From contig JAIOUW010000001.1 in assembly GCA_019931105.1 (NCBI GenBank), positions 620,001-684,000 of the forward strand: a stretch of DNA of 64,000 bases, in the 5' to 3' direction. The position numbers and the translations under genes are program-made. Shown in pieces: positions 1,493 through 34,866 of this stretch; the first letter of the stretch is position 1; the number at the start of each line of letters is the position of its first letter. The notes beneath the pieces are model-generated. The model did no database searches and had not been told where the DNA came from. It saw nothing but the letters and a program-made list of their open reading frames with translations. This stretch comes from Flavobacteriaceae bacterium NBU2977. Lineage in GTDB: Bacteria > Bacteroidota > Bacteroidia > Flavobacteriales > Flavobacteriaceae.

Positions 1493-2056
1493 CTAATTGT
1501 TGGATGGATTCGATACTGGTACATCTGGATTAAACGCGGCAAATACACCGTCTGGATTTTCAAGAATCACCCAAGCATGTAATGTCCATGAGCCACCGGC
1601 CACATTTGGATTGTAATGCCAGTGATCCATATCACCTGCAAAACCTTCAGGAGCTGTTGGGGAAATTGCTTTTGGCACGGCATATTCTACACCCACTAAT
1701 TTTAGTTTGCCTTGTTCATTTGGAACATACAAGAGGATTTCTGGTTTCTCTATTTCAAATTCACCATCGATCAACCCCACGTTAATGTAGTGGAATCCCA
1801 TATTTGGCACATAAGGAGATGGATTAAAAGGGTAAGGGTCGGCATAACCTGCCTTTTTGGCCTGTTCAAAACTATGGAAACGCATTGCCGCCTTCCGAAC
1901 TTTTTTCAATTGGGATTCCAAGTTCTCCATTTTCGACTTTACAGAAACCATGTTCAAATCTGACTCTAAGTCAACTTCTTCCTTAGAGCAAGCGATAAAG
2001 ATGAGTAGCGATACCATAAATGCCAATAGATTAATTTTTTTCAATGTTGTTTTCAT
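1493..2056 (-). CDS. Uncharacterised lipoprotein
   Basis: A 187-residue protein with a lipoprotein signal (LIFIAC, Cys at residue 23). A short charged, probably helical segment follows, then a compact domain with GFHYINVGLIDG, KPEILLYVPNEQGKLKLVGVE and, near the C-terminus, DHWHYNPNVAGGSWTLHAWV. The paired His residues in this last part resemble a metal site. I recall similar secreted proteins of unknown function in other bacteria with the pattern 'MGYHY-N-LLDG...KPE-LLY', but no activity is known to me. It is the first gene of a likely two-gene operon with the cytochrome c lipoprotein and lies directly downstream of the hybrid sensor gene, with a direct-repeat site in the gap. Confidence 0.75.
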   Translation of the reverse strand: MKTTLKKINLLAFMVSLLIFIACSKEEVDLESDLNMVSVKSKMENLESQLKKVRKAAMRFHSFEQAKKAGYADPYPFNPSPYVPNMGFHYINVGLIDGEFEIEKPEILLYVPNEQGKLKLVGVEYAVPKAISPTAPEGFAGDMDHWHYNPNVAGGSWTLHAWVILENPDGVFAAFNPDVPVSNPSNN

Positions 2057-2140
2057 AGTTTTTGAATTTTAATGAAACGATATTTATTTATTGGGAACCG
2101 TGGCACTAAATTCACAATAAGCCAAGAATGGCATTGCCAC

Positions 2141-2155
2141 ACATGTTGCACATGT
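2141..2155. promoter_or_regulatory. Direct-repeat/palindromic motif, candidate operator
   Basis: The sequence ACATGTTGCACATGT contains two copies of ACATGTT nine bases apart (2141-2147 and 2150-2156). It also forms a near-palindrome, since ACATGT is self-complementary. It lies about 85 bp upstream of the lipoprotein start and 50 bp past the end of the gene for the AraC-domain sensor/regulator. An operator for that regulator is plausible but unproven. Confidence 0.35.
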
Positions 2156-2204
2156 TAACAGTTTTGTTTCATTCAAAACAACTTACTGATAAACAGATAT
2201 TTAA

Positions 2205-5069
2205 CTACTTTATATTTTTGTTGAGAGGCAGTTCACTAGGAGAGATACCAAATTTTTCCTTGAAGCTCTTCGCAAAATAGGAGAGATTTGAAAAGCCGAC
2301 GCTATAGGCCACTTCAGAAACATTACCGGTATTATTCTGTAGAAGTTTGTGAGCAGTATTTAGGCGTATTTCAGAAATGAGCTGGTTGGCGGATTTATTG
2401 ACCAGCGCCTTTAACTTTCGATGCAATTGTGCGCGACTGAACCCAACGGAACTGGCCAGAAGTTCTACTGAAAAAGTAGAATCGTCTAAATGCGCTTGAA
2501 TGATTTTAATCACCCTTTGAAGAAATTCATCGTCCATGGAGTTCAATTGAAGTCCATCTACTAGCAAGCCATCGGTTTCCTTGACTTTTTGCCAAAGCCT
2601 TTCCCTTATGGAAATCAAGTTTTTTATGCGTACCAATAATTCATCGGAGGCAAATGGTTTGGTCAAATAGGCATCGGCCCCATGATGTAGTCCCTGCATC
2701 TTGTTTTCCTGTCCGGACTTCGCCGTTAATAAAATTATAGGGATATGACTGGTCTTGGCGTTGGTCTTTAGGGCATCGCACAATGTAAATCCATCTTTTT
2801 TGGGCATCATCACATCGCTAATAATAATGTCCGGTATTTTTTCCAGTGCAATTCTCTCACCTTCCTCCCCATCTTTGGCAAGTAGAATATGGTACGTTTT
2901 TTCCAGGATATTTTTGACATGGAACCTTAGATCATCATTGTCTTCCACCACCAGCGCAATGGGCAAATCGGTCTCGGATATTTCATGACCATTTACTTCA
3001 GCCGATACTGGTATAGCATTCTGCTTCTCATCAGATACGACCAATTTTTCACCCTCTACGACAATTGCTGATTTAGGAAGTCCTTCCAAGGTTATGGGAA
3101 GTTTTACATGAAAAGTGGTACCCTTGCCCAGGGCACTTTCTACTTTGATTTTTCCTTGATGCAATTCTACCAGCTCTTTGGTTAGCGCTAGTCCGATTCC
3201 AGAACCTTTGCCTTCTGAACTCTCAACTCTATAAAATCTATCAAATACATTTGAAAGATTTTCTTTTGAAATTCCCTTACCGGTATCTGAAACCGATATT
3301 TGAATACAATCGTCAATAAAACCGACGGAGACCGAAACCTTTCCACCGGCACCGGTATATTTGAACGCATTGGACAAAAGATTGTTGATTATTTTCTCCA
3401 ATTTATCCCTATCAAAATATGCCTCCTTGGAATCTGAACTAAAAACAACCCCATAATCGACCTTCGATCGCTCGGCCATACTATCAAAAGAAAATATGAC
3501 CGACTTAAGAAAGGGGGCAATATCGTTTTTTCTCAAAGAAAGTACCGCGGTACCGCTTTCCAACTTTGACAGCTCCAAAAGTTCGTTGACCAACGATTGC
3601 AGCCTTTTGGAATTTCTCTGCACGATACCAAATTCCTTTTGGTTCAAGGTTACATCTGCCTGACCATTTTCCATTTGAATTCTCTTGGCATTTTCTATAG
3701 GACCTTGAATCAATGCAAGCGGCGTTCTAAATTCATGGCTGATATTGGTGAAAAACCGGGTCTTTAAATTGTCCAAATCTTTCATTCGAAGCATCTCGGC
3801 CTGTGAACGTTCCGCTTCCAAACGTTCCAACTCCGCTTTCTTGGCCAAGGTCTGTCTTCTATATGCTATGCCAAAGGAATAAATAATGATCTGTAAGAAA
3901 ATACCTGTGGCATACGGATCTAAACGAAATGGTGGAGTGATGAGTTGAAGGGACCAGAGCGTTCCAATAATAAGGGATAAACAGGCAACTAAAGAACCTA
4001 TTCCAAAATATTTAGCAAAAAGATCTTTTTTAAGTATAAGCTCTATGGAAACCGCTAAACTTAACAGCGTATAAATATTCAATATTATATAATGGAAGCC
4101 CACACCGGTGAAATAGGTCTGTGGTTCTGCGATGATCACATAAATAGTTGTAAATACAATTTCAGCTAAGACGAGAAGGGCCAGTATCAACATTCTCTTA
4201 TCCGTTTTAGGGAACTTTCTTTTTGAGTCAACAAAAGCCCTTCCAAAAAACCACCAAGAAAAAAATTGCCCATTGGCCAATAAAAACCAAATGACGTACC
4301 TAAGTGTAATAATATTGCCTATAATCAAACCAGTGGTCATGGCTTGAGTTACGGTGCAAAAAAATAACCAAAAACAAAACCACAGATATATAGAATCTTT
4401 TAAATAAAGGTATTGGAGAAAGTGATACACCAAAATAATAAAGGTGACCCCAAAAAGAAAAAGGTTAAAACTACTATGAAATTGATTGAATTCATGATAG
4501 AAAGGTTCATCGGGACTACGAGCGGTTAAATTGAAATATGCAGGATATCCGATACTATTACCTTGGGCCTTAATAACAAATGTAATGGTTTCATTTACTG
4601 GAATTTCATCCAGTTTAATAGCATTAAGAACCCAATTCCCTTGGTAATCCCTTTCATTCTTTGAATACTCTACCCCGGTCTTTTTATGGAAGAATAAACC
4701 TTTTTCCCCATAGGCATAAACATCAACTTTGCCATTACTTTTGGTCCAAGCTGGCGGACCTATCATTTTGTCCTTAAAATGCAGGGTCCAACCAACTAGA
4801 GGTTCTTTTGTTTTTAAACTAAGTTTCCCCCAATAGGTCTTGCCAACATCCAAATATCGCGGTAATTCATTTGCTTTGAGAGAAGAAAGGGTCGTATCAG
4901 AAAGTACCCTTTGGGGAGTTAATACTTTATTGCTATCGGCATACACCCTTAAAACATTATCCAATGAATGCACCGGATAGCGCGTATCAAAAACATATGT
5001 GTCTTCTTGTGAGCGTACTTGGCCCACCAAAAAAATCAAAAGAAAAAGGATATAGTATGAAAAACGCAT
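2205..5069 (-). CDS. Hybrid two-component sensor kinase/response regulator with AraC output (7TM-DISM type)
   Basis: This 954-residue one-protein signalling system has, in order: a signal peptide (1-20); an extracytoplasmic 7TMR-DISMED2-like sensor domain (about 25-185); seven transmembrane helices (about 200-405); a short coiled coil; HisKA with phospho-acceptor His445 in SHEFRTP; HATPase_c with N box NNLLSNAFKYT and G boxes DTGKGIS and GSGIGLAL (560-660); a receiver domain with phospho-acceptor Asp752 (SDVMMP) and Lys804 (TKPF); and a C-terminal AraC-type double HTH (about 845-950). It should sense a periplasmic ligand or state and bind DNA near its targets. All catalytic residues I checked are present. 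The adjacent lipoprotein-cytochrome pair is the likeliest target (inference). The HTCS proteins of polysaccharide loci usually carry Reg_prop propellers instead of this sensor. Confidence 0.93.
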   Translation of the reverse strand: MRFSYYILFLLIFLVGQVRSQEDTYVFDTRYPVHSLDNVLRVYADSNKVLTPQRVLSDTTLSSLKANELPRYLDVGKTYWGKLSLKTKEPLVGWTLHFKDKMIGPPAWTKSNGKVDVYAYGEKGLFFHKKTGVEYSKNERDYQGNWVLNAIKLDEIPVNETITFVIKAQGNSIGYPAYFNLTARSPDEPFYHEFNQFHSSFNLFLFGVTFIILVYHFLQYLYLKDSIYLWFCFWLFFCTVTQAMTTGLIIGNIITLRYVIWFLLANGQFFSWWFFGRAFVDSKRKFPKTDKRMLILALLVLAEIVFTTIYVIIAEPQTYFTGVGFHYIILNIYTLLSLAVSIELILKKDLFAKYFGIGSLVACLSLIIGTLWSLQLITPPFRLDPYATGIFLQIIIYSFGIAYRRQTLAKKAELERLEAERSQAEMLRMKDLDNLKTRFFTNISHEFRTPLALIQGPIENAKRIQMENGQADVTLNQKEFGIVQRNSKRLQSLVNELLELSKLESGTAVLSLRKNDIAPFLKSVIFSFDSMAERSKVDYGVVFSSDSKEAYFDRDKLEKIINNLLSNAFKYTGAGGKVSVSVGFIDDCIQISVSDTGKGISKENLSNVFDRFYRVESSEGKGSGIGLALTKELVELHQGKIKVESALGKGTTFHVKLPITLEGLPKSAIVVEGEKLVVSDEKQNAIPVSAEVNGHEISETDLPIALVVEDNDDLRFHVKNILEKTYHILLAKDGEEGERIALEKIPDIIISDVMMPKKDGFTLCDALKTNAKTSHIPIILLTAKSGQENKMQGLHHGADAYLTKPFASDELLVRIKNLISIRERLWQKVKETDGLLVDGLQLNSMDDEFLQRVIKIIQAHLDDSTFSVELLASSVGFSRAQLHRKLKALVNKSANQLISEIRLNTAHKLLQNNTGNVSEVAYSVGFSNLSYFAKSFKEKFGISPSELPLNKNIK

Positions 5070-28252: not shown

Positions 28253-29605
28253 ATGGATATTCTTTCATCTTTCGACCTTATTATAGCTGCGGCCGTAATC
28301 GTTATTCTTTCTTTCTGGTTCAACGGCATTTCCAAGAAGACGAACATACCTTCGGTATTGATGTTGATCGTGCTTGGCGTAATTCTGCAATATGTTCTGA
28401 AATTTTTCGTGCCCGATATTCCTGATTTTGCCGGGTCGCTTGAAATTTTAGGAACAGTGGGGCTTATTATGATCGTTCTCGAGGCCGCTTTGGAATTGGA
28501 GCTGAAACGTGAAAAGCTGTGGCCCATTCTCAAATCGATGGCCGTGGCACTGATCGGCCTGGTCGCTTCGGCATGGGTGGCCGCATTGATCATTTATCAA
28601 TTCATACCCGAGATGACCATGCAATCCGCTTGGTTGTATGCGACCCCTTTGTCGATTTTATCAAGCGCCATCATCATACCCAGTGTAGGTGGATTATCGG
28701 CTGACAAGAAGGAATTTCATATTTACGAAAGCACCTTTTCGGATATTATGGGGATTATGATGTTCTACTTTCTGGCCGGGGGATTAGATCCTGCCGACGA
28801 CTCCGGGGTGACGGGATTTGCCGGAAATATTGTATTGACCATAGTCGTGGCACTGGCCGCCAGTTATGCACTCATCCTTATCTTTCAAAGAATAAAGAGC
28901 CAGGCCAAACAGTTTTTGCTCATCGCCGTGCTATTATTGCTATACGCCGTCGGCAAGAAAATGCACCTGTCTTCTTTGATTATCATTCTGGTTTTCGGAT
29001 TGGTCATCAAAAACATCAAAGTGTTTTTTCCGGGAAAAATGGATGTTTTTCTTGAAAACGAAAAAATACACCAAATCTATCATGAACTGCATATCATTAC
29101 CCTAGAAACGGCTTTTGTCGTACGCACCTTTTTCTTTGTAATTTTTGGCCTTTCTATCGTTCTCGCCTCATTGTTCAGCTTAAAGGTGGCCCTGATCAGT
29201 ATATTGATCATCGCATCGATCTATACCATTCGCTTTGCACTGTTACGTATTTTTGTAGGGAAGGATATATTACCCCAACTTTTTATCGCCCCAAGGGGAT
29301 TGATCACCGTACTACTTTTCTATGCCATCCCCGCACAGGCACAAATCGCAAGTTTTGAGTCGGGCGTACTGCTTTTTGTAATCATCGCCACAAGCCTGAT
29401 CATGACCTGGGCCATGATCAAGGACAAAAAGAAAATGGGCACCCTACTGGACGAAATCGACCAAGAACTATTGGAAAGAAACGAGGCCGAAGACGCACTT
29501 CGCGAAAAAGAACTGAATCCTGAAATGCATGAACACAACACAACCAAAATCAACAATCCAACACGTCAAGAATCTCGCGATGAGCTTGACCCAACTCTAG
29601 ATTAA
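28253..29605 (+). CDS. Cation/proton antiporter (CPA family)
   Basis: A 450-residue membrane protein with about 11-13 helices, beginning right at the N-terminus (LIIAAAVIVILSFWFNGI), and a hydrophilic C-terminal tail from about residue 395 rich in Glu and Lys. The arrangement IPSVLMLIVLGVILQYVL, the long interior LEAALELELKREKLWP and the LLILVF/PRGLITVLLFYAIP segment near the end match NhaP/KefB-type Na+(K+)/H+ exchangers. It should use the proton gradient to expel Na+ or K+. The substrate ion cannot be read from sequence. It is divergent from rimP and converges with the large secreted dehydrogenase. Confidence 0.85.
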   Translation: MDILSSFDLIIAAAVIVILSFWFNGISKKTNIPSVLMLIVLGVILQYVLKFFVPDIPDFAGSLEILGTVGLIMIVLEAALELELKREKLWPILKSMAVALIGLVASAWVAALIIYQFIPEMTMQSAWLYATPLSILSSAIIIPSVGGLSADKKEFHIYESTFSDIMGIMMFYFLAGGLDPADDSGVTGFAGNIVLTIVVALAASYALILIFQRIKSQAKQFLLIAVLLLLYAVGKKMHLSSLIIILVFGLVIKNIKVFFPGKMDVFLENEKIHQIYHELHIITLETAFVVRTFFFVIFGLSIVLASLFSLKVALISILIIASIYTIRFALLRIFVGKDILPQLFIAPRGLITVLLFYAIPAQAQIASFESGVLLFVIIATSLIMTWAMIKDKKKMGTLLDEIDQELLERNEAEDALREKELNPEMHEHNTTKINNPTRQESRDELDPTLD

Positions 29606-29634
29606 GGCTTTTTGGACGACTATCATCGATAAAA

Positions 29635-32600
29635 TCATTCTTTAATAAACTTTGCCCCTTTTTGTTGACTGCCGATCGTTAGGTATAAGTAGTACATTCC
29701 AGGACTAAGATCCCCAACATATATTTGAAAGACCCCATCTCCCAATAATTGCGTTTCCTCCCTTTTTAGTGCAAGTACATTTTTTCCGAAAGCATCATAA
29801 ATATAGAACATTTCGACAGGGCTGTCTACATCACCAGAAACCATAATATTCAATAAATTTCCAGCTGGGTTTGGATACAATTCTACTTCTGTGATAGCAA
29901 GTGATTGTTGCTTCGAAGAAGAGGCCGTACTCGTCGTAAACGGGGAGAGCACCTCGCCCGGAACCACCTCGACGGGGAGCGCGCCGTCGCCGTCGCTCGG
30001 CCTGCGCCAGCCCACCGCCAGATTGTCCCCGAAGGCCTCCTCCTTCATCAGGGCCTCAATGTAGTAGCGCTCGCCACGCTCAAGATAGATGCCCGAAGAC
30101 TTCTGCGTTGCGAACTTGTCCCACTGCCTGCTGCTGGCCCAGTCGTCGTGGTGGGCGATCCTCGCCTTGCCAGAGGCATCGGCCGTCGCGCTGAGGCTCA
30201 GCTCGGCATGGTTGTTCGCCGCGACCCAGAAATAATACGTGCCCGTCTCGGGAGCGCAGAGGTAACCCCTCACCCTGACACCGTAGTCGTCGCCCTGGTT
30301 GCTCTCGATCTCGAAAAGCGAAAGCTCGGCGGAAAGCGTAGGGCTGTCGGGATAGGAAGGGGCACCCGTAAGGTTCGCGATCGAACTGCCCGGTATACCG
30401 TCGTAGCGCTCCATCAATATCGTGCCCGAGGCCGTACAGGGATCGGGATTGGGAGCCGTGACGGTAACCGCCGACTGTGCCGTGAAGCCCCCGTCAACAG
30501 TGGTCACCGTGACCGTGGCCGTGCCCTCGGAGACACCCGTGACAAGACCGGAACCGTCGACCGTCGCGACCGAGGCGTCGCTCGTAGACCACGAAACGGA
30601 ACCGTCGCTCGCCCCTGACGGCGACACCGTCGCCGTAAGTAACGCCGAACCGCCCTCGGAAACAGTCAGCGAAGACGGATCCAAGTCCACACCCGTGACG
30701 GGGACAAGCTCATAGGCCGCCGGGGAGAGCACCTCGCCCGGGACCACCTCGACGGGGAGCGCGCCGTCGCCGTCGCTCGGCCTGCGCCAGCCCACCGCCA
30801 GATTGTCCCCGAAGGCCTCCTCCTTCATCAGGGCCTCAATGTAGTAGCGCTCGCCACGCTCAAGATAGATGCCCGAAGACTTCTGCGTTGCGAACTTGTC
30901 CCACTGCCTGCTGCTGGCCCAGTCGTCGTGGTGGGCGATCCTCGCCTTGCCAGAGGCATCGGCCGTCGCGCTGAGGCTCAGCTCGGCATGGTTGTTCGCC
31001 GCGACCCAGAAATAATACGTGCCCGTCTCGGGAGCGCAGAGGTAACCCCTCACCCTGACACCGTAGTCGTCGCCCTGGTTGCTCTCGATCTCGAAAAGCG
31101 AAAGCTCGGCGGAAAGCGTAGGGCTGTCGGGATAGGAAGGGGCACCCGTAAGGTTCGCGATCGAACTGCCCGGTATACCGTCGTAGCGCTCCATCAATAT
31201 CGTGCCCGAGGCCGTACAGGGATCGGGATTGGGAGCCGTGACGGTAACCGCCGACTGTGCCGTGAAGCCCCCGTCAACAGTGGTCACCGTGACCGTGGCC
31301 GTGCCCTCGGAGACACCCGTGACAAGACCGGAACCGTCGACCGTCGCGACCGAGGCGTCGCTCGTAGACCACGAAACGGAACCGTCGCTCGCCCCTGAAG
31401 GCGACACCGTCGCCGTAAGTAACGCCGAACCGCCCTCGGAAACAGTCAGCGAAGACGGATCCAAGCCCACACCCGTGACGGGGACCAAAGCAGGTTCAAC
31501 AACAACAGTGGTAGTATCGGTGAAGCCTCCATCGCTTGTCTTACCCGTAATCGTTGCGGTTCCCGCCAAAATACCGGTAACCCTTCCTGAGGAATCTACG
31601 ATGGCAATATCAGTATCTGAAGAGCTCCAGTCTATCGTTTGATCCGTAGCATCAACGGGAATAATCGTTGCAATAAGCGATTTAACATCACCCTCCCTTA
31701 TGCTCAGCGTTTCAGGAGCAATATCAAGACCGGTAACAGGAACCGTGGCAGCCTCGACCAAAATGGTGACCGAATCGGAAAAACCTCCATCGGTGGTAGT
31801 TACAGTAACAGTAGTTGTGCCCTCGGAGACCCCCGTAACCGTACCTGTATTGTCCACAGTGGCGATACTTAAATCGGCAGAGACCCAATCGACCGTTTGA
31901 TCCGTGGCATCTGAGGGAGTCACGGTAGCGGTCAGGGATTGGGTACCGCCCTCTACAATAGTAATTGAATCTTGGTCAAGGTCGACCCCGCTAACTTTAA
32001 TAATAGGGGGACCGTTGAAATAGTCAAAAGCCGTGCATGGGATTACCTGAATAGGTACTGAACCATCACCATTGCTGGGTTTTCGCCAACCAACTGAGAG
32101 ATTATCTCCCCCACCTCTTTCGTTCATCAAGGCCTCTATATGATAATTCTGGCCTGCCACTAAATCAATACCAGCCGATTTTTGGGTGGAATATTTGTTC
32201 CATTCCCCATCTCTTGACCAATCATTATGATAAGCGATCCGCACCTTATTGGCCTCACTGGCATCGCTACTAATACTTAATTCGACATTGTCGTCACCGG
32301 TAACCCAAAAGTAGTAAGTACCAGTTTCGGGGGCTTTCAAAAGTCCTTTTACGCGCACCCCGTAATCATCATCGACATTGATCGGTATTCGAAACTCGTT
32401 AAGTTCATCAACGGCTGTCGGTGAATCGGGAAAATTGACATTGCTCTTCAATTCAGCAATGGAAGTTCCGGTCACATTTTCAAAAGTTTCCATAATAATC
32501 CTATCCTCGCAAGGGTCCGGATCGAGTTGGTTAATCCAATCTTCGATTAGTTGTACGGCCTTATCGTCGATCTTATTTTTTGCGATCGGGGGCATACGAA

Positions 32601-34866
32601 TGGCCGGATCTGTACTATTCATCCTATGATATAGAATTGAGGTCCCTATATTGCCCGGATCGACAATTCTTTCGTCGGGTATTCCCAAGGGCAGGTAAGG
32701 AGAAGCCGTCAAAACACCCGTTTGTTCCAAATCTAGGTTCAGCCTCAGATCGAAATCCCCGCGATTTCCAGTACCTGGCCGATGACAATATGCGCAGTTC
32801 AAATCTAAATAAGATCTGGCCCTGTCGTCCAATGTTGCCAATGGGTCTGTTATTGCTTTGGAGGTAAGTATAGTACCGGTATCAGCATCGGTAACACTTT
32901 GATCCAATATTCCTAAATGGCTTAAAGTTACCAATTGATTGGCCGTTCTACCGGTTTGGGGATATGTATAGTCTTTGTTCAAATATCTGGCCCTTGGACC
33001 TAAGGTTCCACCTGTAGTTGGATTGTGACAGCTAACACAATCAATGGTACTTGGATAATTCCAGGTTTGGGTACCCGAGCTGCCATCAGATTTAATGATG
33101 TCCAGATTTTCTTCCAAGCCTCCGGTCAGTAGAATAGCATCTGTTTGCTGATCATTCCACTTATAGGTCACAAAATAGAAATTGCCATCATTGGCCTTTA
33201 TCGAAAATCGTGTTTCCAAACGTTTTACGATACTAGGATTTCGCTCATCGATAGGTAGTTCAAAATGTTTTACCAAAACGGTTCCGATTGGAAAATCCCA
33301 GTCATCGACATCGGAGTATGATATCTTTTCACCCGCTGTATCATGAATTCCATCATTAGGAATTGCCATCCAACGTTTCTTTAAAGCCCCGTCGGACCAA
33401 AAAGATTCGACCAAATCATAAGGAATAAGACCTTCGGTGGGCGTCAAATTGACCAGGTCTGAAAAAGCACCTGTCTGCGACAACAATCGTGGAGTGTTTC
33501 CGAAACCCGTGTTTTTCGATGTAATCTTAAAAAGCGAGGAAACACCTTGCTTTAAGATATATAGTTCGCCTTGTTTGTCTTCACCGAACGAAATTATATT
33601 GGTAGACGTAAAATTGCCATATTGTTCGTATATGCCCGTATTTATATCAACAGTAAAGATTTCTTCGCCACTACCATAGTCGGCGCAAATGTATTTGCCT
33701 TCAAGTTCTGGGATCTCATTTCCGCGATATACATAACCTCCGATAATGGCGTTTGCCTCGGCTCTCGGAAAAGCCACTAATGGCTGTTCGTGCGACATAT
33801 TATTATAGAGGTTTTGCACACAGAAAGTGCTATAATATAGGCCTTCATAGAGAGGCCAACCATAATTTTTCCCTTTTTTGACAATGTTGATTTCTTCATG
33901 TCTTCCCCCTCCGATTTCACCGACATATAATTCACCGGTCAACCTATCTTTGGTCATTCGATGGGGATTTCTATGGCCCAAGCTGTAATATTCTTCGAAA
34001 TTCTGACCCGTAGGGCTCAAAAAAGGGTTGTCATTTGGGATCCAATAGCCATTGCCTGTTATCTCATCGAAAAAACCATGGTCATCGGGCATGGTTCTAA
34101 CCGGGGCATGACTTTTAGTAGGATCTTTATCCACATCCAATCGTAAAACCCCTCCATCAAGATTATTAACTATATCCTGTGCTTTTTTGAATGCAGTTTG
34201 ATCACCGGTGGTCAAATATAAAAAGCCATCGTCTCCAAAGACAAGGCCACCCCCCCTATGGGTAGTACCGTACATTCTAAGTTTGAGCATGATTTGTTCG
34301 CTAGACTCCTGCACAGTCAAGCTATCAGGGTCGGCTTGATATCTTGCCAGAATCAAAAAATTACCCCAATATTCTTCGCTATTACAACTTTGTGTGGTAT
34401 AACTATTGGGAAAATCATTGCTATTTGCATCCTCGGTAGTGTACCATACATAAAAATAGTTCTTACCGGGGGAGCCAAATTCAGGATGTAGGGCAAGGCC
34501 CAGAAATCCTCCATCCCACACTACGCCGACTTTCTCCGATAAATCCAACATGGAATTCTTCACTGAGACACTTGGAGTTTTATCGAACCAAAAGATTCGT
34601 CCATCCCTTTGGCCTATGATAATTTTATTTCCATTGGGAACTTCATTAAAGGTCAATGGCGAATCAAAGCTCAGATTGGGAAAAACAGGTTCATAAGGTA
34701 GGCCCTGTGGCAAACTAGCGGGAAAATTACCGTTTAGATATGCGCCAATTGGTTCAGCGCTATCTAAACCAGAACCCGCAAAATATGGAGCGGTACCCAA
34801 AAAAATCAGTGATGATCCAATAGCAATATAGCCTCGAACCTTTTTTCGAAGTAGTCTTATTTTCAT
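29635..34866 (-). CDS. T9SS-secreted glucose/sorbosone dehydrogenase-like diheme protein with PA14 and Big2 modules
   Basis: A 1743-residue secreted modular protein. In order: signal/anchor (1-30); glucose/sorbosone-dehydrogenase-like beta-propeller (about 50-455, e.g. LGLALHPEFG and HRGGGLVFGDDGFLYLTTGD); an SO2930-type cytochrome region (about 460-775) with haem motifs CVSCH (about 610) and CAYCH (about 690); PA14 (about 783-950); two Big2 Ig-like domains (955-1127); two further Big2-PA14 units (about 1128-1382 and 1388-1642); and a T9SS sorting domain from about 1665 (VELYPNPAGNLLNI). It would oxidise a sugar or alcohol at the cell surface and pass electrons to its own haems. The substrate is unknown. 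The last two Big2-PA14 units are almost identical and GC-rich, unlike the rest of the gene. Confidence 0.88.
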   Translation of the reverse strand: MKIRLLRKKVRGYIAIGSSLIFLGTAPYFAGSGLDSAEPIGAYLNGNFPASLPQGLPYEPVFPNLSFDSPLTFNEVPNGNKIIIGQRDGRIFWFDKTPSVSVKNSMLDLSEKVGVVWDGGFLGLALHPEFGSPGKNYFYVWYTTEDANSNDFPNSYTTQSCNSEEYWGNFLILARYQADPDSLTVQESSEQIMLKLRMYGTTHRGGGLVFGDDGFLYLTTGDQTAFKKAQDIVNNLDGGVLRLDVDKDPTKSHAPVRTMPDDHGFFDEITGNGYWIPNDNPFLSPTGQNFEEYYSLGHRNPHRMTKDRLTGELYVGEIGGGRHEEINIVKKGKNYGWPLYEGLYYSTFCVQNLYNNMSHEQPLVAFPRAEANAIIGGYVYRGNEIPELEGKYICADYGSGEEIFTVDINTGIYEQYGNFTSTNIISFGEDKQGELYILKQGVSSLFKITSKNTGFGNTPRLLSQTGAFSDLVNLTPTEGLIPYDLVESFWSDGALKKRWMAIPNDGIHDTAGEKISYSDVDDWDFPIGTVLVKHFELPIDERNPSIVKRLETRFSIKANDGNFYFVTYKWNDQQTDAILLTGGLEENLDIIKSDGSSGTQTWNYPSTIDCVSCHNPTTGGTLGPRARYLNKDYTYPQTGRTANQLVTLSHLGILDQSVTDADTGTILTSKAITDPLATLDDRARSYLDLNCAYCHRPGTGNRGDFDLRLNLDLEQTGVLTASPYLPLGIPDERIVDPGNIGTSILYHRMNSTDPAIRMPPIAKNKIDDKAVQLIEDWINQLDPDPCEDRIIMETFENVTGTSIAELKSNVNFPDSPTAVDELNEFRIPINVDDDYGVRVKGLLKAPETGTYYFWVTGDDNVELSISSDASEANKVRIAYHNDWSRDGEWNKYSTQKSAGIDLVAGQNYHIEALMNERGGGDNLSVGWRKPSNGDGSVPIQVIPCTAFDYFNGPPIIKVSGVDLDQDSITIVEGGTQSLTATVTPSDATDQTVDWVSADLSIATVDNTGTVTGVSEGTTTVTVTTTDGGFSDSVTILVEAATVPVTGLDIAPETLSIREGDVKSLIATIIPVDATDQTIDWSSSDTDIAIVDSSGRVTGILAGTATITGKTSDGGFTDTTTVVVEPALVPVTGVGLDPSSLTVSEGGSALLTATVSPSGASDGSVSWSTSDASVATVDGSGLVTGVSEGTATVTVTTVDGGFTAQSAVTVTAPNPDPCTASGTILMERYDGIPGSSIANLTGAPSYPDSPTLSAELSLFEIESNQGDDYGVRVRGYLCAPETGTYYFWVAANNHAELSLSATADASGKARIAHHDDWASSRQWDKFATQKSSGIYLERGERYYIEALMKEEAFGDNLAVGWRRPSDGDGALPVEVVPGEVLSPAAYELVPVTGVDLDPSSLTVSEGGSALLTATVSPSGASDGSVSWSTSDASVATVDGSGLVTGVSEGTATVTVTTVDGGFTAQSAVTVTAPNPDPCTASGTILMERYDGIPGSSIANLTGAPSYPDSPTLSAELSLFEIESNQGDDYGVRVRGYLCAPETGTYYFWVAANNHAELSLSATADASGKARIAHHDDWASSRQWDKFATQKSSGIYLERGERYYIEALMKEEAFGDNLAVGWRRPSDGDGALPVEVVPGEVLSPFTTSTASSSKQQSLAITEVELYPNPAGNLLNIMVSGDVDSPVEMFYIYDAFGKNVLALKREETQLLGDGVFQIYVGDLSPGMYYLYLTIGSQQKGAKFIKE
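29941..30705. repeat. GC-rich 765-bp tandem repeat, copy A
   Basis: Copy A encodes residues of about 1388-1642 of the secreted dehydrogenase (one Big2 plus one PA14 domain). It matches copy B at an offset of exactly 780 bp; I find three mismatches (29962/30742, 30619/31399, 30686/31466). A line counted by eye (30001-30060) is 39/60 G+C, against 28/60 in the homologous older PA14 module at 32101-32160. Confidence 0.95.
30721..31485. repeat. GC-rich 765-bp tandem repeat, copy B
   Basis: Copy B encodes residues of about 1128-1382. It is separated from copy A by a 15-bp spacer coding for a few linker residues. Identity ends sharply at 31485, where the base composition falls back to that of the neighbouring Big2 domain. 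Confidence 0.95.

Follow-up and report, generated by a model that had tools for sequence, protein, structure and literature searches.

GC-rich, nearly identical Big2-PA14 repeats in a flavobacterial T9SS gene: a composition island of probable local origin through recombination between the repeats

Two nearly identical Big2-PA14 units, found in one gene of a 64-kb stretch of flavobacterial DNA (the window, meaning here the whole stretch that was analyzed), form a real composition island, which was probably built in place by recombination between the repeats. Our best explanation, to which we give a rough probability of 0.46, is that the units were duplicated locally and homogenized by recombination, and that their high GC content was built in place by GC-biased gene conversion. 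The parts of this explanation that we infer are conversion as the homogenizing process and its GC bias; biased conversion during homogenization would be the simplest account of these and similar arrays. In outline, the two units would have arisen when the Big2-PA14 cassette already present in the gene was duplicated locally and in tandem, and recombination between the copies would keep them nearly identical. When mismatched copies pair, repair would favor G/C, and a tract that converts often would become GC-rich, with the rest of the gene holding the composition of the genome. Codon selection probably acts on top of conversion, because the surviving codons that end in A or T are mostly T-ending (GGT, CTT, and GTT).

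The units belong to a gene whose product consists, in gene order, of an N-terminal region, a glucose/sorbosone-dehydrogenase-like (GSDH) domain, a diheme-cytochrome-like region, a first PA14 domain with a pair of Big2 domains behind it, the two Big2-PA14 units, and finally the tail for type IX secretion (T9SS). The features are located as follows.

29635..34866, minus strand: whole gene, 1743 aa, defined from the ORF and its translation and from domain profiles
33547..34575, minus strand: glucose/sorbosone-dehydrogenase-like (GSDH) domain, about residues 98-440
32524..33492, minus strand: diheme c-type cytochrome-like region, residues 459-781, TIGR03806 at 240 bits
32038..32520, minus strand: first PA14 domain, of normal composition, GC3 about 0.40
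31777..32001, minus strand: older Big2 domain 1, GC3 0.47 over the matched part
31498..31743, minus strand: older Big2 domain 2, GC3 0.37
30721..31485, minus strand: GC-rich Big2-PA14 unit, N-terminal copy, GC 0.65
30706..30720, minus strand: 15-bp linker (AAYEL) between both units
29941..30705, minus strand: GC-rich Big2-PA14 unit, C-terminal copy, GC 0.65
29644..29880, minus strand: type IX secretion C-terminal sorting domain (PF18962, TIGR04183)

The GSDH domain matches PF07995 with 142.7 bits (cutoff 25), the best stretch being residues 263-440, and a TIGR03606 match over residues 98-343 of the window protein stays under that model's own cutoff. The cytochrome-like region resembles the SO2930-type diheme cytochrome and is not counted as a member, its TIGR03806 score of 240 being below the cutoff of 313.3. 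PA14 (92 bits, cutoff 24) and Big_2 (220 bits, cutoff 22.8) both exceed the Pfam gathering cutoffs, and the sorting domain exceeds the cutoffs of both models (PF18962, 33.7 vs 27 bits; TIGR04183, 36.5 vs 23 bits), which places the protein among type A T9SS cargo. Judged from its domains, the window protein is likely a secreted sugar dehydrogenase with a cytochrome-like region and with PA14 modules carried on Ig-like spacers, and its domain order and sorting tail are those of T9SS multidomain proteins of Flavobacteriaceae with Big2, PA14, F5/8C, and HYR repeats. PA14 modules of other proteins often bind carbohydrates, and a different number of repeats would be expected to alter the reach or the binding of the window protein.

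The two 765-bp units are offset by 780 bp, with a 15-bp spacer between them. The preliminary description had put their differences at about three, and exactly three were counted, at 29962, 30619, and 30686, each against the base 780 further on; two are synonymous, one exchanges Asp and Gly, and all three set G/C against A/T. Both units have a GC content of about 0.65 and a GC3 of 0.79-0.80, whereas the catalytic part, the first PA14, and the tail have a GC content of 0.38-0.44 and a GC3 of 0.33-0.41. Listed by region, GC3 elsewhere in the gene is 0.38 over residues 1-785 and about 0.41 in the first PA14; the older Big2 domains have about 0.48 and 0.37, and the tail has 0.33. The contrast in composition described earlier is also clear against the rest of the 64-kb window, where 750-nt sliding windows (step 50, those starting at 29201-31600 being excluded from the background) have a mean GC content of 0.429, with an sd of 0.028 and a maximum of 0.527. 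The border at 31485, previously regarded as sharp, proved the softer of the two, with a 30-codon GC3 of about 0.67 at the start of the repeat and of 0.33-0.53 in the preceding Big2; the sharp border is that at 29941, where the 30-codon GC3 is 0.83-0.93 and then 0.37. At fourfold sites, A and T have frequencies of 0.02 and 0.23 in the window units, compared with 0.21 and 0.27 in the background. A DNA search of the own genome revealed no third copy, and Tandem Repeats Finder, whose longest period is 500, reported nothing. The number of two copies is that of the assembly, which may have collapsed a repeat that exceeds the length of short reads. Opposite the repeats, long open frames run along the plus strand at 29905-30618 and 30928-31398; these are probably not genes but a byproduct of the lack of A-ending codons.

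The closest relatives of the unit are in ordinary-GC Flavobacteriaceae, at the matching place in the matching gene. The best homologue of the unit is that of Maribacter algarum (65%), in whose GSDH gene a tandem array of the homologous unit follows the first PA14; for the PA14, the best homologues in these Flavobacteriaceae are at 70%. A GSDH domain together with a PA14 at about residue 800-960 occurs in genes of M. algarum and of genomes G342, G271, G186, G174, and G191, and the PA14 GC3 is 0.17-0.55 among the relatives compared and 0.61 in locus L032. The gene is patchy: 10 of 397 family genomes, own genome counted, match at E values up to 1e-25, no PA14 match was present in the two congeners examined, and the best match outside the family in a phylum sample of 395 genomes was at 43%. 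No close homologue from a high-GC genome was found in the genome contigs and in the family and phylum samples, and the PA14s of such genomes are at 39-44% (L193, 44%, locus GC 0.65; L194, 39%, locus GC 0.60). A DNA search of plasmids gave no match to the cassette, and viral contigs matched in the Big2 part only, with a GC3 of up to 0.27 and no relative of the whole cassette. Because genome contigs, plasmids, viral contigs, and the family and phylum samples yielded only distant PA14s from high-GC genomes, a foreign high-GC donor was set aside as unsupported.

A tree of 45 PA14 rows, 5 of them labeled GC-rich (GC3 of at least 0.58), requires three changes of this label, and three are forced by starred branches. 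The window pair falls in a starred clade of 8 with the array copies of M. algarum (GC3 0.42-0.54) and with L019 (0.27), the pair of G174 is placed among mostly first-PA14 domains (0.17-0.53), and the third GC-rich point is the single PA14 of a Bacteroidetes MAG (L032). From these placements, the nearest kin of the window units are lower in GC and occupy the same position in the gene. Among the 26 genome-contig loci, 17 besides L018 are in the domain tables and the tree; L021, L023, L028, L029, and L035 were taken as duplicates, L033, L042, and L043 were omitted without good reason, and only L018 entered the statistics of the array survey.

The survey of intragenic arrays covered regions of Flavobacteriaceae with Big_2 or HYR matches, for a total of 115 loci, and 16 ribosomal-protein regions; the survey regions were hand-picked among the matches listed (60 Big_2 and 40 HYR, plus 14 first regions). 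Each 240-nt window of an ORF was given its GC3 and its identity to the most similar copy within the same ORF, with windows that contain N and ORFs under 450 nt excluded. An array is called near-identical when its copies are at least 92% identical, and a host is called moderate-GC when its background GC3 is at least 0.31, the background being the median of the non-repeat windows of the fetched loci, which for 43 of 69 genomes rests on one locus. Because of these one-locus backgrounds, and because the cutoffs of 92% and 0.31 were fixed after the first survey, the p-values given below are descriptive; the HYR loci were fetched once the cutoffs were already set.

Of 38 near-identical arrays from 30 genomes, 23 had a GC3 more than 0.05 above that of the remaining ORF, 8 were within 0.05 of it, and 7 were more than 0.05 below it, the largest within-gene contrast of the survey being 0.48. 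In moderate-GC hosts, 18 of the 22 arrays were raised (Wilcoxon p = 3.6e-4), and when counted by genome the excess was positive in 14 of 18 (p = 5e-4). In AT-rich hosts, 5 of 16 were raised, though their copies are equally identical, and 4 of these 16 were more than 0.05 below the remaining ORF. Divided by source, 12 of the 22 arrays from the Big_2 and first loci are raised, as are 11 of the 16 from the HYR loci; within moderate-GC hosts, the numbers are 11 of 13 and 7 of 9, respectively. The excess in GC3 climbs with the GC3 of the host (Spearman 0.42 with p = 0.009, or 0.40 with p = 0.03 when taken by genome), and near-identical arrays also exist at a GC3 of 0.11-0.25 in AT-rich hosts. Universal biased conversion of equal strength is rejected, as AT-rich hosts are mostly without the effect. 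A clean threshold in host GC is rejected too: the later HYR loci obeyed it only in part, with L156 and L164 raised despite a low-GC host and L151 and L158 not raised despite a moderate-GC one.

In moderate-GC hosts, the mean excess in GC3 is +0.002, +0.002, and -0.05 in three identity classes of diverged copies, and +0.15 and +0.16 for near-identical copies. When the same domain is compared in these hosts, Big2 with a near-identical copy has an excess of +0.231 (35 domains, 9 genomes), Big2 without a copy +0.051 (41 domains), and Big2 with a copy under 85% +0.006 (13 domains), with a per-genome p of 7.5e-4 for this control. PA14 follows the same trend, on few domains, with values of +0.306 with a near-identical copy (6 domains), +0.206 with a copy at 85-92% (1 domain), +0.047 with a diverged copy (3 domains), and -0.037 without a copy (4 domains). 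In moderate-GC hosts, 75 of the 261 near-identical windows have an excess of at least 0.25, compared with 16 of the 412 diverged windows and 71 of the 5827 without a repeat; 46 of the 71 are in ORFs that also bear near-identical repeats, and 38 of those 46 are N-terminal parts of L084, L129, and L130. Within the same ORF, near-identical windows exceeded diverged ones in only 14 of 24 comparisons (p = 0.18), and in 9 of 13 for moderate-GC hosts (p = 0.04).

These results suggest a wider rule, by which near-identical intragenic repeats of unrelated domains are raised in GC3 in moderate-GC hosts, homogenization and recombination being taken here from the identity of the copies. It is quite possible, if somewhat short of even odds, that the near-identical tandem repeats in secreted proteins of moderate-GC Flavobacteriaceae record a strong GC-biased conversion, which would bring resident domains to a GC3 of about 0.5-0.85 with a host-dependent strength, perhaps tied to genome GC.

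The substitutions within the raised arrays, and their codons, bear on the process. Singletons comprise 42 changes from S to W and 32 from W to S, and at third sites 25 changes from G/C to A/T and 23 in the reverse direction. The 25 of 48 are compared with the 33.7 expected for decay to the host composition (p = 0.0025), a test in which all 48 singletons come from 6 arrays, none from the window copies, and in which sites are taken as independent. With singletons thus balanced, the arrays are unlike decaying foreign DNA; and, as a clear excess toward A/T is lacking, the repair bias is what we infer rather than observe. GC-biased conversion should be independent of translational codon preference, and this independence is seen in the ribosomal-protein regions, where fourfold GC is below the background in 16 of 16 genomes (each region being 13 kb around the L2 gene, in which other genes may be included). 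Because this trend is opposite to that of the arrays, ordinary translational selection does not explain them, and translational selection alone was rejected. GC-biased conversion should also remove A and T alike, and this strand symmetry fails in the window. The fourfold skew of G174 and G191 is similar to that of the window units and that of G342 is reversed (A 0.32, T 0.13), so that the skew varies among arrays. Because A is lost more than T, strand-symmetric conversion alone is insufficient, and codon selection that retains T-ending codons may add to it.

The preliminary description offered either an in-frame cassette from a high-GC source that was then doubled or copies kept alike by gene conversion. 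Its contrast in composition and its tandem structure stand, and conversion fits the evidence as a probable process; the high-GC source lacks support, as the position-matched homologues are of ordinary GC, the high-GC PA14s are at 39-44%, and unrelated near-identical arrays are enriched as well. A broader form of horizontal gain, in which a cassette donated by some high-GC organism not yet sampled, or drawn from a mobile pool of GC-rich modules within the Flavobacteriaceae, recombined into the gene and was then duplicated, is judged unlikely. It would agree with the unit GC of 0.65 against 0.43, with the sharp border at 29941, with the patchiness of the gene (10 of 397 genomes), and with the distant PA14 relatives in the high-GC L193 (44%) and L194 (39%). 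It would also suit the GC-rich N-terminal part that is 86% alike between genera and 76% within one, the GC-rich Big2 domains of three genera that are mutual best matches, and the arrays of G000, G174, and G191, which are much alike in fourfold composition. Nevertheless, the best homologues (65% for the unit, 70% for the PA14) are ordinary-GC genes with the unit at the same place, and the high-GC ones are far more distant; plasmids are without a match and viral contigs match the Big2 part only; separate donors would be needed for unrelated domains; and the singletons are without sign of decay.

More doubtful still is selection at the codon or mRNA level, peculiar to long repeat proteins, that would favor G/C-ending codons in place of biased repair. 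The loss of A-ending codons is strand-asymmetric, with T-ending GGT, CTT, and GTT kept, and several arrays of AT-rich hosts are slightly AT-richer than their own ORF, as if the host bias were exaggerated, both of which such selection would explain; it is opposed by the ribosomal-protein regions (16 of 16 genomes), by diverged and single-copy domains of the same kind, which are little or not enriched, and by ACG, TCG, and AGG, which in our judgment are no translational optimum. The causation could also be reversed, GC-rich tracts being more prone to tandem duplication or conversion so that identity follows GC, and we consider this the least probable of the alternatives. GC-rich tracts without near-identical copies (L186, L159, L032, and the N-terminal part of L084) would be in its favor, but in moderate-GC hosts 71 of 5827 non-repeat windows reach an excess of 0.25 or more vs 75 of 261 near-identical ones, and near-identical arrays arise at a GC3 of 0.11-0.25 in AT-rich hosts.

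Local duplication followed by GC-biased conversion, the reading preferred here, is related to a disputed topic, since GC-biased gene conversion in bacteria is argued for in PMC4450053 and against in PMC8153448, as far as the available parts of both sources go. In those parts of the former, Lassalle et al. 2015 report that bacterial genes with signs of recombination are higher in GC regardless of codon selection, and that the rise is possibly opposed to AU-ending optimal codons. The window case would be like this proposal in that GC may rise with recombination, and in that such a rise runs apart from translational codon preference; it differs in that the published work compares core genes of related genomes, whereas the contrast described here lies inside single genes and reaches 0.48 in GC3. 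The words "tandem" and "paralog" are absent from the text of PMC4450053. A second parallel, from the available part of PMC8981503, is that of the palindrome arms of primate X chromosomes, which are near-identical, interconvert, and are GC-richer than their single-copy flanks; those are primate palindromes, and the arrays considered here are bacterial tandem coding repeats, host-dependent and strand-asymmetric. In open-licence literature, no description was found of composition islands in near-identical arrays of T9SS proteins, and the accessible portion of a paper on crAssphage BACON repeats (PMC6949934) mentions neither GC content nor gene conversion. Intragenic repeats provide an internal control, because they share gene, expression, and place on the chromosome and differ in conversion rate. 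Should the preferred reading be correct, a GC island in a repeat protein ought not to be taken for foreign DNA without further evidence, and a comparison of hosts that show the effect with hosts that lack it might indicate which repair system is responsible.

Individual arrays add detail and exceptions, the latter counting against the preferred reading. The G191 version of the gene has GC-rich discoidin-type (F5/8C) units in place of Big2-PA14. In G174, GC3 climbs from 0.1-0.3 to 0.7-0.9 within one PA14, about where the near-identical tract starts, yet the start of the second PA14 has a GC3 of 0.7-0.9 and is only about 40-60% identical to the first copy. Exceptions in moderate-GC hosts are L158, L084, and L130, lower than the rest of the ORF, and L151, slightly lower; L156, L164, L094, L161, and one array of L152 are raised despite an AT-rich host. 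The congener G002 has a GC-rich module without a Pfam match, and its locus L072 has a 119-nt exact repeat before the T9SS tail. Contigs L071 and L072 of this genome both stop within GC-rich Big2 repeat modules that belong to secreted proteins, so that such arrays may have interrupted the assembly; L071 is the other side of a Big2 protein and can be joined to L072 at most as a candidate for the same gene.

The GC-rich N-terminal part of genes L129 and L130 (genome G237) is 97.2% identical over 1779 bp. Among the related GC-rich parts, identity is higher for a pair from different genera (L084/L128, 86%) than for a pair from a single genus (L084/L129, 76%). The GC-rich Big2 domains of L068, L075, and L085, from three genera, are mutual best outside matches (65-74%). 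Both observations suggest a shared origin or transfer in some cases. Parts related to the GC-rich part of G237 are also found in G003 and G013, which belong to different genera and whose pair is 86% alike. Finally, as exceptions to the suggested rule, some GC-rich tracts have no near-identical counterpart within their own gene, among them those of L186 and L159, the one PA14 present in L032, and the N-terminal tract of L084. The tract of L186 (positions 1952-3629 of the locus, genome G158) is a GC-rich C-terminal region that has relatives elsewhere in its genome, at 71-78% identity.
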